DNA from: Propionispora vibrioides
GTDB taxonomy: Bacteria; Bacillota; Negativicutes; Propionisporales; Propionisporaceae
Assembly (NCBI RefSeq): GCF_900110485.1
Contig: NZ_FODY01000002.1
Coordinates: 186,001 to 250,000, forward strand
Length of the DNA: 64,000 nucleotides
Direction: 5' to 3'
Part shown: positions 12,664-37,971 of the stretch, piece by piece
Layout of the letters: the number at the start of each line of letters is the position of its first letter
How positions within the stretch are numbered: position 1 is the stretch's first letter
Translations under genes and position numbers: made by a program
Notes under the pieces: model-generated
Told to the model about the DNA's origin: nothing
Seen by the model: only the letters and a program-made list of their open reading frames with translations
Database searches by the model: none

Positions 12664-13944
12664 TTAATGAAACACCGCCAGCAACGGCTCATAAAGAAAA
12701 TGCAGAAATAAAAAAAGTACGATGCCAACCAAACCGCCAACCACTGAACCGTTAATCCTTATCCACTGCAGATCATTGCCTACCCTGCTTTCCACAAACC
12801 GGCTCAATCGTTCGTCACTAAAGGAAGCCAGCGCTTGCCTGATTACCAAACCAATCAGCTCATGCCGGCTTTCCAGCATACGGTTTAACAATCGACGGGC
12901 TTCCCGGTCCAGCCTTTTCCTTAAGGGGACATCCTGCTTAAACTGGCGCCACAAACGGCCGCTTTGCCAAAGCAGCCATCTATGCACAGGCGATCGCGGC
13001 GTAAGTGAGTCGGCTACCAGGGCCTGGATCAGTTTAACGGCGGTTTGGTAAACGTCAGGCTGGGTCAGCACGGCTACTTTCCAATGCTCTACCGCCTCAT
13101 CCCACTCTGCTGTATGCTGAAACGCTTCCGCCAAGTCGATCACCTGTTCTTCCAGCCAAGTTCGCAGCGGTGTTTCGCCGCCGGCAAATTCCTCGACGGC
13201 CAGCACCAGCTCGGCATGCACCGCAGTGGCAGCCTCCTCCAGATTAATACTGTCGGTTTGCTCTCCCAGCCAAATGACGGTCTTGCCAAATAGCGACCGC
13301 TCCTTGCTTGCCTTGAACTCCTGTAAATATTGGTAGATGGCGTCCTTACTTTTATCGGAACGGACCAAACTCAATAATTCGGCAGCTACCCAATCGAAGA
13401 AATGGCGATAATAGCCCTGTTCAACCATCCAACCTGCTGCCTGTTTGGCAGTTGGCGCCAGTTGCAGGCTATCGGTTGCCGCCTGTTTAATCATGTTTTC
13501 CAGAAGTTGGGTTATAAAGGAAGAATGCAGCCAGACAACGAGCTGCCGGCGATGCCGGAGCAGCCAATCGGTCAGGATGGGCTGCTCCCGTTCCTCCCGT
13601 TCCACCCAAGCGATCAACACCGTCGTAACCGATGTTTGAGCCAGCCGCTGCTTAAGAGCGGCAACGCTGAGCAAGTCGCGTTCGATAAAATCGGCGATGG
13701 CGTCAATCATTCGCTGGCGGTTGCGCAATAAAATGGCCGTATGCCAGGGAAAGCCCAGCGGCTTTCTGAACAAAGCCGTCACGGCAAACCAATCGGCAAT
13801 GCCACCGGCTAAAGCAGCCTCCAGACCGGCATAACATAGCTCCAGCCAAAAAACGCCCGGCATAGACTGTTTAACGACACGAATCAGCAAAAATAAAACA
13901 AATAGCAATCCCAATATCCAGTTAGCCCTATCCTTATACGGCAT
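12664..13944 (-). CDS. DUF445 membrane-anchored protein, paralogue 1
   Basis: A 426-residue protein with an N-terminal membrane segment (WILGLLFVLFLLIRV), the DUF445 signature ALAGGIADWFAVTALFRKPL and FPWHTAILLRNRQRM, a long helical middle, and a C-terminal hydrophobic segment (VVGGLVGIVLFLFLHFLY) preceded by WIRINGS. Function is unknown; the layout suggests a membrane-tethered coiled structure. The ATG at 13944 is 19 bases past the stop of its tandem paralogue; an upstream in-frame start at 13989 would overlap that gene. Confidence 0.8.
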   Translation of the reverse strand: MPYKDRANWILGLLFVLFLLIRVVKQSMPGVFWLELCYAGLEAALAGGIADWFAVTALFRKPLGFPWHTAILLRNRQRMIDAIADFIERDLLSVAALKQRLAQTSVTTVLIAWVEREEREQPILTDWLLRHRRQLVVWLHSSFITQLLENMIKQAATDSLQLAPTAKQAAGWMVEQGYYRHFFDWVAAELLSLVRSDKSKDAIYQYLQEFKASKERSLFGKTVIWLGEQTDSINLEEAATAVHAELVLAVEEFAGGETPLRTWLEEQVIDLAEAFQHTAEWDEAVEHWKVAVLTQPDVYQTAVKLIQALVADSLTPRSPVHRWLLWQSGRLWRQFKQDVPLRKRLDREARRLLNRMLESRHELIGLVIRQALASFSDERLSRFVESRVGNDLQWIRINGSVVGGLVGIVLFLFLHFLYEPLLAVFH

Positions 13945-13963
13945 AGCCAATATTCTCACCCTA

Positions 13964-15211
13964 TCAAAAAAAATCCACCGCCCGGTCAATCAGAAAAATC
14001 AGACCGCCGGCCAGCCCGCCCACCAGGGAACCATTAATCCGGATCATCTGAAGATCATGGCCGACTTTATCCTCAATGAAGCGAATTAGCCAATCATTGC
14101 TGAATTGCTCCAGACTGCTTTTTATCAAGCGGCCGATGTCCGCTCCGTGCCGTTCCACAAAACAGCATAGCCTTTGTTTTATCATCTGATCGGCCACCGC
14201 TCTGGCCGCCTCATTGCCGGCGAACTCCTCCAGTATTTGTTCCAGGTACCGTGACAACCGCCCCAGTTCCCATAGCAGGCGCTGCCTGTCTACCGCATCA
14301 GCCTGCAAGAGGCGCTGTAGCGCCGGAAATAGCTGCTCGCCCAGCCGGCTCTCAACCAGTCGTTGTTTAAGCCAGTTATCCAATTGATGACGCAAAGTCC
14401 GGTCTCTTTGGACTTGCCGCATCTTTTGACGCAGCCAGTTATGCAGCAGTCGTCGCGCCGGGTGCTCCGGTTGCTTCATGGCCTCCAGCAGGGCGGTCAA
14501 AGCGCGTTGGATGGCTCGGCCAGCCTGCTCCGCCGATAGCTGGAACAACTGATCGAATACCTTCCGCCGGACTTTTTCCTTTTCATAGCTTTGTTGAACC
14601 TGGGCCAACAGGGGAGCCAGCATCGACAAAAACTGCGGTTGCCGGATGAGGCGGCTAACTTCCTCCAGGACAAAAACAACTATGGCAGCATCATATTTAC
14701 GGCGCAGCAGCCAGGCAACTCCCATCAAAAGCGGTTCCGCCAGGGAAAGGGTTGACAGATTCTTTTGCACCAACTGATTCAACAAATGCGCGGTCTGGCG
14801 GGCTTTCCCCTGCTGAGCCAAGGTCAAGAGTGCCAGACGAAGCAGCTTTTCTACCTGCCGCTTGCCATCCTGCCTGTATAAGTATTCCAGAATAACCGCC
14901 GTAGTGTCATAATCACGCAGTGTTCTGGCCATATTGCTGCCTGTCATCAGGTCATCCTGCACCATAACGGAAAAGGCGTGAAACATTTGCTCCCGCTTAC
15001 GAGGGATCATCGCCGTATGCCAGGGAAAGCCCAGCGGCTTTCTAAACAACGCTGTTACGGCAAACCAGTCGGCCAGCCCGCCGGCCAACGCAGCACTGGC
15101 TACGGCACACAGCAAACCGCCGCCCAGAGTATGCCGGTACGGATAACTTGCCAGGCAAATTAACAAAGTAATTCCCAATAACAGGTTAGCTTTATGCTTC
15201 ATGGATTTCAT
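13964..15211 (-). CDS. DUF445 membrane-anchored protein, paralogue 2
   Basis: A 415-residue tandem paralogue of the next gene. It shares ALAGGLADWFAVTALFRKPL, FPWHTAMIPRKREQM and the C-terminal MIRINGSLVGGLAGGLIFLI. The N-terminus has one hydrophobic helix (LLLGITLLICLASY). The middle differs greatly between the two copies and is rich in Arg, Gln and Leu helices. Probably co-transcribed with paralogue 1, so the two may form a heteromeric complex; this is inference. No function is established. Confidence 0.8.
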   Translation of the reverse strand: MKSMKHKANLLLGITLLICLASYPYRHTLGGGLLCAVASAALAGGLADWFAVTALFRKPLGFPWHTAMIPRKREQMFHAFSVMVQDDLMTGSNMARTLRDYDTTAVILEYLYRQDGKRQVEKLLRLALLTLAQQGKARQTAHLLNQLVQKNLSTLSLAEPLLMGVAWLLRRKYDAAIVVFVLEEVSRLIRQPQFLSMLAPLLAQVQQSYEKEKVRRKVFDQLFQLSAEQAGRAIQRALTALLEAMKQPEHPARRLLHNWLRQKMRQVQRDRTLRHQLDNWLKQRLVESRLGEQLFPALQRLLQADAVDRQRLLWELGRLSRYLEQILEEFAGNEAARAVADQMIKQRLCCFVERHGADIGRLIKSSLEQFSNDWLIRFIEDKVGHDLQMIRINGSLVGGLAGGLIFLIDRAVDFF

Positions 15212-15470: not shown

Positions 15471-15508
15471 GCGCTTCCCTAGTTTTTCCGGCAACAGCCC
15501 AGAAAAAA

Positions 15509-15539
15509 GAGATATTTCATTTTAAAAATGAAATATCTC
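15509..15539 (-). terminator. Terminator of htpX
   Basis: Inverted repeat with 15-base arms (15509-15523 and 15525-15539), followed on the minus strand by TTTTTTCT; it lies 25 bases after the htpX stop. Confidence 0.8.
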
Positions 15540-15563
15540 CAGAGAGATTAGGGAATCACTATG

Positions 15564-16430
15564 TTAGCGCATCTGGCTGGCCAATTGCTGCAACTTGGCA
15601 ACCCGTTCCGCCGTAGACGGGTGAGTGCTAAACAGGCTGGTCATCCAGGAACCTGCGCCACTGAGCGGGTTGATAATAAAAAGATGCGAAGTAGACGGCG
15701 TCGCCGCGGGCATCGCCGCATTCTTGGCATAGTATTCGATTTTCTGCAGGGCGCTGGCTAAAGCCAACGGGTTGCCGGACATGAGTCCACCGGTTTTATC
15801 AGCCTGATATTCCCGGGTGCGGGATACGCCCAGTTGGATCAGGGTCGCTGCCAGAGGAGCCAATACCACCAAGAAAACAAGCCCTACAATGCCGCCAATC
15901 CCGTTATCGTCATCATCACTGCGGCCGGTACCAAAGATTGCCGCCCATTGCGCCATATTGGCGATCATCGAAATGACCCCGGCAATTGTGGCAACAACAG
16001 TGCTGATCAGAGTATCACGGTTTTTAATGTGGGACAGTTCATGGGCTACCACGCCTTCCAGTTCCTCCCGGTTAAGGGCCTGCATAATGCCTGTGGTCAC
16101 CGCTACGGCACCATGCTCCGGATTGCGGCCTGTTGCAAAGGCATTGGGTGTATTGGTATCAATAATGTACACCTTCGGCATCGGCAGCGCCGCTTTTTTG
16201 GCCAGATTGGCCACCAAACGAATTAAATCAGGGGCGTTCTGTGCGTCCACCTCACGGGCATTGTACATTTTGAGAACAATCTTGTCACTGAACCAATAGC
16301 TGCCAAAATTCATGAGGATTGAAAAAATGAACATAAGAAGCATGCCGTGCGTACCGCCAAACATATTGCCGATGGCGAGTAGTAGACCGGTTAGCGCCGC
16401 CAGTAAAATTGTCGTTTTCAGTGAGTTCAT
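15564..16430 (-). CDS. htpX: HtpX-type M48 membrane metalloprotease
   Basis: A 288-residue membrane zinc protease that degrades damaged membrane proteins. Two N-terminal hydrophobic helices (about 8-22 and 29-46), the zinc motif HELSH (130-134), two further helices (about 145-165 and 175-200), then SRTREYQAD carrying the third ligand. The C-terminal [13 protein letters not shown] is typical. The ATG at 16430 has GGAGG eight bases upstream; the open frame extends five codons further. The 170-base leader holds a yybP-ykoY-type riboswitch and terminator, so expression should respond to manganese. Confidence 0.95.
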
Positions 16431-16461
16431 ATCATTTTCCTCCATTTTCTATTTTACTATA

Positions 16462-16502
16462 AAAATAGACCTTTGGTATGACGATGATCATACCAAAGGT
16501 CT
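16462..16502 (-). terminator. Riboswitch-controlled terminator in the htpX leader
   Basis: Perfect 15-bp arms (16467-16481 and 16488-16502) with a 6-base loop, followed on the minus strand by ATTTTTAT. The first-transcribed arm (AGACCTTTGGTATGA) contains the 3' strand of the aptamer, so ligand binding and terminator formation exclude each other. This is the layout of a transcriptional ON switch. Confidence 0.85.
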
Positions 16503-16590
16503 TGCTTTATTGGGTATTATCCAACGAACAACACCAGATGATGGTCATCGGTTGTTGATGCTGTTCTTACAAGCTACTCCCCTAAGGTTC
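16492..16590 (-). promoter_or_regulatory. yybP-ykoY-type (manganese) riboswitch aptamer upstream of htpX
   Basis: The minus-strand leader contains CCTTAGGGGAGTAGC at its 5' side and AGCAAGACCTTTGG at its 3' side. These match the two conserved strands of yybP-ykoY aptamers (GGGGAGUAGC and AGCAAGACCUUUG), which sense Mn2+. A central helix is formed by complementary AACAAC/GTTGTT blocks. The outer P1 pairing has two U-U mismatches in its middle. Known targets of this class are mostly manganese exporters, P-type ATPases and TerC proteins; here the gene downstream is htpX. Confidence 0.85.
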
Positions 16591-16610
16591 GCTTCTATTG
16601 AATTACTTAC

Positions 16611-16639
16611 AGTATAACAAACTTTCCCGCTTTTGTAAA
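16611..16639 (-). promoter_or_regulatory. Sigma-A promoter of the riboswitch-htpX unit
   Basis: TTTACA (16634-16639) and TATACT (16611-16616) on the minus strand are 17 bases apart. Transcription would begin near 16604, a few bases before the aptamer. Confidence 0.8.
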
Positions 16640-16712: not shown

Positions 16713-16877
16713 CTAGTGGTCCACCAACTCTGAAAATACAATTCCTTTACGGTCCTTTTTCCGCAAGGCATCGTTGTCGTCGACTTACCTATGTTCGATA
16801 GGTGCGTCTCCTCCGCCTTGCCTTACGAAAAAATTCCCGCAAATTAATTTGCACTTTCAAAGTTGGCGAACCACTAG
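16713..16877 (+). repeat. Family-2 structured repeat, copy G1
   Basis: A 165-bp element bounded by CTAG. Outer arms TGGTCCACCAACT and AGTTGGCGAACCA pair; inner arms around TTTTTCCGCAAGGC and GCCTTGCCTTACGAAAAA pair; the centre holds CGTTGTCGTC, a small hairpin and TCCTCCGCCTTG. It lies just upstream of the DUF441 gene. Confidence 0.8.
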
Positions 16878-16917
16878 GGAACTACTGATTTCACGATACA
16901 CAAAGGAAGTGATCCAT

Positions 16918-36422: not shown

Positions 36423-37667
36423 TTAAAACTCTAGCGTTGCAAAATAATCTTCAATTGTTTCGGCGCGGCGAATCAATTTCACACTGCGGTCCGGCCGCAG
36501 CAGCAACTCAGCGGAGCGAAGCTTTCCATTATAATTGAAGCCCATAGCGTGCCCATGGGCACCGGCATCATGAATTACCACGACATCGCCGATATCAATC
36601 ATTGGCAGCTTGCGGTTAATGGCAAACTTATCATTATTTTCGCAAAGCGAGCCGGTTACGTCGTAAATATACCCTTTCGGCCAGTCTTCCTTGCCGACTA
36701 CCGAAATATGATGATAGGCCCCATAAAGTCCGGGACGCATCAGGTTGGCCATGCAGGCATCAAGTCCGACATAATTTTTGTAGATTTCCTTTTTATGCAA
36801 AACGGTGGATACCAGATAACCATAAGGACCGGTAACCATACGGCCGCATTCCATCGCCAGTTTTAAAGGATGCAGTCCGTTAGCCACGATCTTTTCCTCA
36901 TACGCCTGCTTGATACCCTGGCCCAGACGTTCAAGATCGACTGCTTCCTGCTCCGGCCGGTACGGAATACCGATACCGCCGCCGAAATTGACAAACTCTA
37001 TGCGGATACCCAATGACCGGTTGACTTCCAACACTAGATCGAACATCATATGAGCGGTTTCAATAAAGAAATTATGATCAAGTTCATTGGAAGCAACCAT
37101 GGTATGAAGGCCAAAGCGTTTTACCCCTTTTTCCTTCACAATGGCCAGGGCCGACAGTAATTGTTTTCTGGTCAGTCCGTATTTGGATTCCTCCGGATTG
37201 CCGATGATAGCATTGCCGCCTTCCCGGAGCGGGCCCGGATTATAGCGGAAGCAAAGCACCTCTGGGATGCCGGCATGTCTTTCCAGATAATCGATATGAC
37301 TGATATCGTCCAGATTGATCACGGCACCCATTTCACGGGCTTTCTTAAATTCAATGGCCGGCGTATCATTGGAGGTAAGGATAATCTCTTCTCCCTGCAG
37401 CCCGGCTCTTTCCGCCAGCAAAAGTTCCGCCAGCGAACTGCAGTCGGCCCCAACGCCTTCTTCCCGCAAAACTTCCATAATGGAAGGATTGGGAGTCGCT
37501 TTTACGGCAAAATACTCCTTAAATTCAGGCGCCCAGGCAAAGGCGTTCAATAAAGCGCGCACATTGTCCCGGATAGCCTGTTCATCATAAATATGAAAAG
37601 GCGTTTTATATTCCTCAATAATCCTGTGAATTTCATCTTTAGAAAATGGTAGTTTCTTTTCCGCCAT
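36423..37667 (-). CDS. lysA: Diaminopimelate decarboxylase
   Basis: A 414-residue PLP enzyme of the alanine-racemase fold that makes lysine from meso-diaminopimelate. The PLP lysine is Lys56 in YFAVKATPNP; further motifs are FGLHTMVASNE, FVNFGGGIGIPY, AMECGRMVTGPYG, and the substrate-binding VTGSLCENND near the C-terminus. Length is normal. Transcription is controlled by an L-box lysine riboswitch with terminator, consistent with lysine biosynthesis and not a degradative decarboxylase. Confidence 0.95.
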   Translation of the reverse strand: MAEKKLPFSKDEIHRIIEEYKTPFHIYDEQAIRDNVRALLNAFAWAPEFKEYFAVKATPNPSIMEVLREEGVGADCSSLAELLLAERAGLQGEEIILTSNDTPAIEFKKAREMGAVINLDDISHIDYLERHAGIPEVLCFRYNPGPLREGGNAIIGNPEESKYGLTRKQLLSALAIVKEKGVKRFGLHTMVASNELDHNFFIETAHMMFDLVLEVNRSLGIRIEFVNFGGGIGIPYRPEQEAVDLERLGQGIKQAYEEKIVANGLHPLKLAMECGRMVTGPYGYLVSTVLHKKEIYKNYVGLDACMANLMRPGLYGAYHHISVVGKEDWPKGYIYDVTGSLCENNDKFAINRKLPMIDIGDVVVIHDAGAHGHAMGFNYNGKLRSAELLLRPDRSVKLIRRAETIEDYFATLEF

Positions 37668-37748: not shown

Positions 37749-37784
37749 GAAATGGTAAAGGAAGTTTTACCCACGTGCAAGATA

Positions 37785-37946
37785 GTAGCGCTCCCCTTGA
37801 TATCCATCAAGCGACAGTCCGGTATTTCTTAAACACAAGACCAGCGGCAATCCCTGGCAAGACTGCAGCTTCGGCGGCTATCCCTTTCCCTGGCTTCACA
37901 GTTCGCCAGACTCCGTCAGGTACTATTGATAGACCGCACCTCTACC
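37785..37946 (-). promoter_or_regulatory. Lysine riboswitch (L-box) upstream of lysA
   Basis: The minus-strand leader shows the conserved L-box segments in order: GTAGAGGTGCGG, AGTACCTGACGGAG, GGGAAAGGGATAGCC, GCCGAAG, CTGTCGC and GGGGAGCGCTAC. The outer GTAG/CTAC strands form P1. Lysine binding would favour the downstream terminator and switch lysA off. Confidence 0.95.
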
Positions 37947-37971
37947 ACAAAATAATATAAACTTGTAATTT

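Follow-up and report, generated by a model that had tools for sequence, protein, structure and literature searches.

A putative manganese riboswitch of the yybP-ykoY class in the leader of htpX in Propionispora vibrioides, and its recurrence at htpX genes of other bacteria

The genes known to be targeted by the very common yybP-ykoY riboswitch class encode metal transporters and TerC-like proteins. The membrane metalloprotease HtpX acts in membrane-protein quality control; to our knowledge, its substrates are poorly known. The closest described counterpart of the leader reported here is the transcriptional switch of Lactococcus lactis yoaB, with which it shares the L1 sequence GGGGAGUA, the CAACA of L3 that in yoaB contains the Mn-binding adenosine, and a P1.1 switch helix competing with an intrinsic terminator (PMC11087558, PMC6754395). 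In L. lactis, P1.1 stabilised by Mn2+ prevents termination (PMC11087558), and the last adenosine of CAACA (A41 in Lactococcus, A48 in Xanthomonas) binds Mn2+ via its N7 (PMC6754395). Our leader differs from yoaB and its class in that the aptamer is compact, lacks P2, stays under the Rfam threshold and has an imperfect P1.1, and in that the target is a membrane protease, not a transporter or TerC.

Two other systems are relevant for comparison. The mneA and terC genes of Vibrio parahaemolyticus (PMC13274385) represent a riboswitch class and partner genes that are also found in the P. vibrioides genome, the difference being that here HtpX is added to the regulon, either alone or as the second gene after TerC. 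The GDT1 proteins include the manganese exporter MneA (PMC13274385), and TerC is also tied to manganese (PMC13274385, PMC10550928). Escherichia coli htpX is controlled by Cpx, and the Bacillus subtilis homologue ykrL is upregulated when membrane proteins are overproduced (PMC3514339). The protease and the envelope-stress context are alike in these systems, whereas control in our locus would be exerted by a metal-sensing leader RNA instead of a protein regulator. In B. subtilis, HtpX and the TerC protein MeeF co-purify, and the loss of two TerC proteins makes the cells dependent on FtsH (PMC10550928); the available text of that paper does not report a riboswitch before htpX. We found no report of htpX as a yybP-ykoY target in the open-access literature searched; it may be listed in Dambach 2015 or Price 2015.

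The htpX leader and its aptamer

The window, i.e. the whole 64,000-nt stretch of P. vibrioides DNA that was analysed, contains on the minus strand between 16639 and 16430 a promoter, a compact yybP-ykoY (RF00080) aptamer, a terminator and the start of htpX, in this order. The features are as follows (R1 is a covariance model and type A a subtype, both described below).

16611-16639, minus: sigma-70-type promoter, TTTACA-17-TATACT with TG before the -10 hexamer (scan, 10/12 consensus match)
16492-16588, minus: compact yybP-ykoY aptamer without P2, consisting of P1.1, L1, P1.2, P3.1, L3, P3.2 and P4 (R1, sub-threshold RF00080 match, unprompted fold, covariation)
16575-16582, minus: L1 loop GGGGAGUA, docking strand of the metal site (GGGAGUA invariant in 35 type A relatives)
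16526-16566, minus: P3.1 (10 bp, GAACAGCAUC/GGUGUUGUUC), L3 and P3.2 (GAUGA/UCAUC) (fold, covariation)
16553-16558, minus: L3 core UCAACA (invariant in the 35 relatives; residue role from PMC6754395)
16509-16525, minus: P4 hairpin GUUGG..CCAAU (fold)
16467-16502, minus: intrinsic terminator with 16 pairs and the tail ATTTTT (scan; AGACCUUUGGU is common with the 3' strand of P1.1)
16439-16443, minus: GGAGG ribosome-binding site serving the start at 16430 (sequence)
15564-16430, minus: htpX, membrane zinc metalloprotease of family M48 (Pfam PF01435 and NCBIfam NF002826)
15508-15540, minus: strong terminator-like hairpin 3' of htpX

An earlier note on this DNA had described a good promoter, a yybP-ykoY aptamer and a terminator using the 3' strand of the aptamer. 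The promoter was recovered by the scan; the terminator does share its 5' strand with P1.1, its length being 16 bp and not 15. The class, the architecture and the target gene of the aptamer were borne out as well.

The open reading frame of htpX extends from 15564 to 16445 and its first ATG is at 16445. Because homologues align from residue 5 or 6 and GGAGG lies at 16443-16439, translation probably starts at 16430. The product matches PF01435 (E=4e-37) and, with 388.7 bits, scores above the cut-off (369) of NF002826, zinc metalloprotease HtpX; its HELSH is the HExxH motif of M48 proteases. Since a second strong hairpin follows the gene, the transcript probably ends at 15540-15508 and the unit comprises htpX alone. 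Beyond this hairpin two adjacent paralogous genes for DUF445 membrane proteins are located (12664-15211, minus). On the other side, directly upstream of the promoter (16713-16878), there is a repetitive element of about 165 bp whose ends are inverted repeats (AGTGGTCCACCAACTCTGAAA / TTTCAAAGTTGGCGAACCACT) and which has about 40 related copies across the genome with 73-98% identity and, judged from its sequence, looks like a MITE.

The aptamer forms one 97-nt piece between promoter and terminator and contains GGGGAGUAGC, CAUCAACA, the P4 hairpin and GCAAGACCUUUGG. The folding energy of the leader is unusually low (z = -6.7, none of 200 shuffles being as low), and the isolated aptamer, folded unprompted, adopts P1.1, P1.2, P3.1, P3.2 and P4. 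The helices P1.1/P1.2, P3.1/P3.2 and P4 meet at a junction as in the class, which, P2 being absent, is a three-way junction. P1.1 of the window copy consists of 3+3 pairs around two U-U mismatches (ACCUUAGG with CCUUUGGU). The last A of the L3 core, A16553, corresponds to the Mn-binding adenosine A41/A48.

The copies that we collected include two subtypes. Type A (GUCAACAUACUG..UGG) is found with GDT1, some TerC genes and the htpX genes of the group to which the window belongs, and type B (UCGUCARUACGG..CCGG) with TerC-htpX, other htpX genes and the Nitrospirota copies. When the type A structure was followed through the 35 relatives, 95% of the cells were paired and 14 pairs were changed on both sides, with 94 doubly changed cells against 25.5 expected from shuffles; the support for pairing collapsed when the partners were slid. 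It must be added that these counts exclude the MAFFT alignment of all subtypes, in which L3 is misaligned. Two congeners (G002 and G003) keep the aptamer and the terminator before htpX while the flanks diverge; the promoter hexamers are likewise kept in two congeners with diverged flanks, and in G003 the terminator is kept with compensating changes.

Assignment to the yybP-ykoY class

The scan of the leader with Rfam did not give any match reaching the gathering level. RF00080 matched 16509-16587 (minus) with 12.2 bits in the full model with large deletions, the gathering value being 45; the E-value of 0.2 counts all 4227 Rfam families, thus it is about 5e-5 for one family. Three other sub-threshold matches in the leader (rnk_leader, mir-2_2 and eiav_FSE) were discarded, as they traced either the terminator palindrome or a short word. 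The RF00080 threshold is strict: at 33.6 bits the GDT1-linked copy in P. vibrioides falls short of it too, and it is passed in only two of the five control genomes that have a match.

Among 80 HtpX loci from public genomes, a Nitrospirota group and one Geomonas locus had a riboswitch-like leader before htpX, with GGGAGTA, CGTCARCA, a P4 hairpin, AAGACCTTT and a terminator. The covariance model R1 was made from eight of the Nitrospirota leaders, which contain 10 doubly changed pairs (none of 500 shuffles was as good), and did not include the window leader. R1 matched the window at 16493-16588 (minus) with 40.4 bits and E=4.2e-8 in 554 kb searched. Its other non-seed matches, L077, L002, L001 and L055, all belonged to leaders or operons that include htpX or an exporter gene; a marginal match in L017 (E=4) was taken as chance. 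R1 also recovers those RF00080 copies that precede GDT1, TerC and P-type ATPases. As R1 matches the window leader independently, we regard the class assignment as settled: by its sequence, the htpX leader contains an aptamer of the yybP-ykoY (RF00080) class. The Rfam scan that the earlier note had proposed stayed below gathering level, and the lack of a covariance-model hit, which according to the same note would speak against the switch, is true of the Rfam threshold only, the one that fails with the GDT1-type copy of this genome as well.

P. vibrioides was found to have three copies of the riboswitch, located before TerC (contig C4), before a GDT1/UPF0016 protein (C7) and before htpX in the window. 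The TerC protein of C4 matches TIGR03717, 'R_switched_YjbE', with 209 bits. A second HtpX paralogue (C3, 60% identical), whose gene follows a START-like gene, has no riboswitch copy in the surrounding 5.5 kb. The window contains another riboswitch, of the Lysine family (37778-37952, minus, 97.6 bits), upstream of a 414-aa open reading frame (36423-37667) that looks like lysA, the diaminopimelate decarboxylase gene.

Switch mechanism and other explanations

The terminator and P1.1 compete for AGACCUUUGGU, which is the 5' strand of the former and the 3' strand of the latter. In the fold predicted at a length of 107 nt, prior to transcription of the terminator, P1.1 is formed. The terminator form has a calculated energy of -50.1 kcal/mol versus -30.6 kcal/mol for the antiterminator form, thus the complete terminator wins by about 20 kcal/mol. 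As this arrangement is like that of the L. lactis switch, the expected output is ON with Mn2+, and the leader is most likely a transcriptional ON switch, in which Mn2+ would stabilise P1.1, block termination and raise HtpX. We infer Mn2+ as the ligand and the ON direction from the class and from the anatomy of the leader. At low Mn2+ the nascent RNA would form the 16-bp terminator, and transcription would stop before htpX. Mn2+ bound between L1 and L3 would hold the imperfect P1.1, the terminator could not nucleate, and HtpX would be made. HtpX would in this way join the response to manganese excess beside TerC and the GDT1-type exporter, and would probably remove membrane proteins misassembled or wrongly metalated under excess manganese.

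That the leader is a yybP-ykoY riboswitch turning htpX on at high manganese is, in our opinion, very probable, although the RF00080 score below the curated threshold, the two U-U mismatches in P1.1 and the absence of the riboswitch from htpX in many related genomes speak against it. It is conceivable, but improbable, that the main cue of this fold is a divalent ion other than Mn2+, or a combined metal and pH signal, which has been reported for some members of the class. A review mentions yybP variants suggested to sense other divalent ions (PMC7266159), and the L3 sequence after the key adenosine is AACAACC and not the commonest AACAUAC, type B relatives differing even more; however, the Mn2+-contacting residues are unchanged, and the other copies in the genome precede TerC and a GDT1-type exporter, members of manganese-tied families. 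It is very unlikely that the leader is a mere attenuator or terminator (a transcription barrier or RNA-stability element) whose likeness to the aptamer is a non-sensing relic: the far greater stability of the terminator than of the antiterminator and the mismatched P1.1 would suit such a role, but within the genus the aptamer is better conserved than its surroundings, including helices not common to the terminator, and its pairs covary across families.

Recurrence of the riboswitch-htpX link

The manganese switch proposed here is not confined to P. vibrioides. R1 found copies in 81 of 201 genomes of the same class, taken as Negativicutes on the basis of the named relatives; when the matches were intersected with the positions of HtpX, at least 18 copies lay 48-125 nt before htpX, and at least 13 further copies stood at the head of operons in which htpX came later, mostly after TerC. 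Close inspection of 20 regions added G016, G032, G049 and G020 (the last with TerC) and confirmed G003. The fetched loci had as targets GDT1 (31), htpX (21), TerC-htpX (21), TerC (19), P-type ATPases (3) and other genes (9, including cut contigs and unannotated genes); this tally is not an unbiased census, because the loci were chosen by R1 score and a few entered it twice (L085 and L122 represent a single place). In Lucifera butyrica the switch is two genes upstream of htpX.

In the Nitrospirota set 31 of 198 genomes had copies. The htpX share in this phylum (17) is inflated, since the seeds of R1 were picked for preceding htpX; the seven htpX genes among the 28 newly fetched loci are a fairer figure. 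The remaining loci mostly have a P-type ATPase or a carbonic anhydrase gene behind the switch, thus a model trained on htpX leaders also finds classical transporter targets. The Geomonas genome G204 has three copies, before htpX, before htpX with a TerC/Alx gene, and before TerC/Alx. RF00080 matched in five of 148 genomes of the same phylum, those matches with a recognised first gene preceding a GDT1-like gene and none of the copies being linked to htpX, thus the Geomonas link rests on the R1 matches in G204.

In the loci of the closest HtpX relatives (Sporomusa and others, L003-L008) the riboswitch is missing from the position directly before htpX, therefore conservation of the leader could not be used there. 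As many related genomes, e.g. Sporomusa, lack the riboswitch at htpX, the switch must be inessential to HtpX function. The labels type A, type B and none, when placed on a tree of 93 HtpX proteins, require at least 12 changes; the 'none' rows were inspected close to htpX only, and some of them may belong to operons whose switch lies farther away. These changes indicate that the switch was gained or lost at htpX many times, which favours a functional reason over a single inherited accident.

Judged from the loci compared, the pairing of riboswitch and htpX recurs in three phyla, often in one operon with TerC. The earlier note had implied that HtpX was an isolated target of the class; HtpX is indeed the target, and it is a recurrent one, often together with TerC. 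The RNA belongs to a known class, and the new element is this recurrent protease target. It would link manganese excess with membrane proteolysis and give HtpX a concrete physiological setting, and it agrees with the co-purification of B. subtilis HtpX and MeeF (PMC10550928). The data suggest that in many bacteria the clean-up of membrane proteins is coupled to manganese excess. A scheme in which too much manganese impairs the metalation or insertion of membrane and exported proteins, and HtpX disposes of the resulting products, would accommodate a TerC-htpX operon controlled by such a switch. We lean slightly towards a broader view, in which the manganese homeostasis defined by these riboswitches would include a conserved arm for membrane quality control. 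HtpX would have come under the switch repeatedly, alone or behind TerC, because excess or misplaced Mn2+ damages membrane or exported proteins while they are being inserted and HtpX removes them; it would thus be a functional partner of TerC across Negativicutes, Nitrospirota and Geomonas. Because the Rfam threshold hides compact copies, the regulon is underestimated in genome annotations.

Several loci had other arrangements. The L. butyrica unit (L002, 413-3332) consists of the riboswitch followed by genes for a class III aminotransferase, a START-like protein and HtpX. In the Nitrospirota loci L193, L205, L207, L208 and L209 the riboswitch precedes a carbonic anhydrase-like gene, in some of them followed by a P-type ATPase gene. 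L176 has tandem aptamers before GDT1 (201-294 and 365-456), and in L171 two aptamers lie within 1.1 kb before TerC-like genes.
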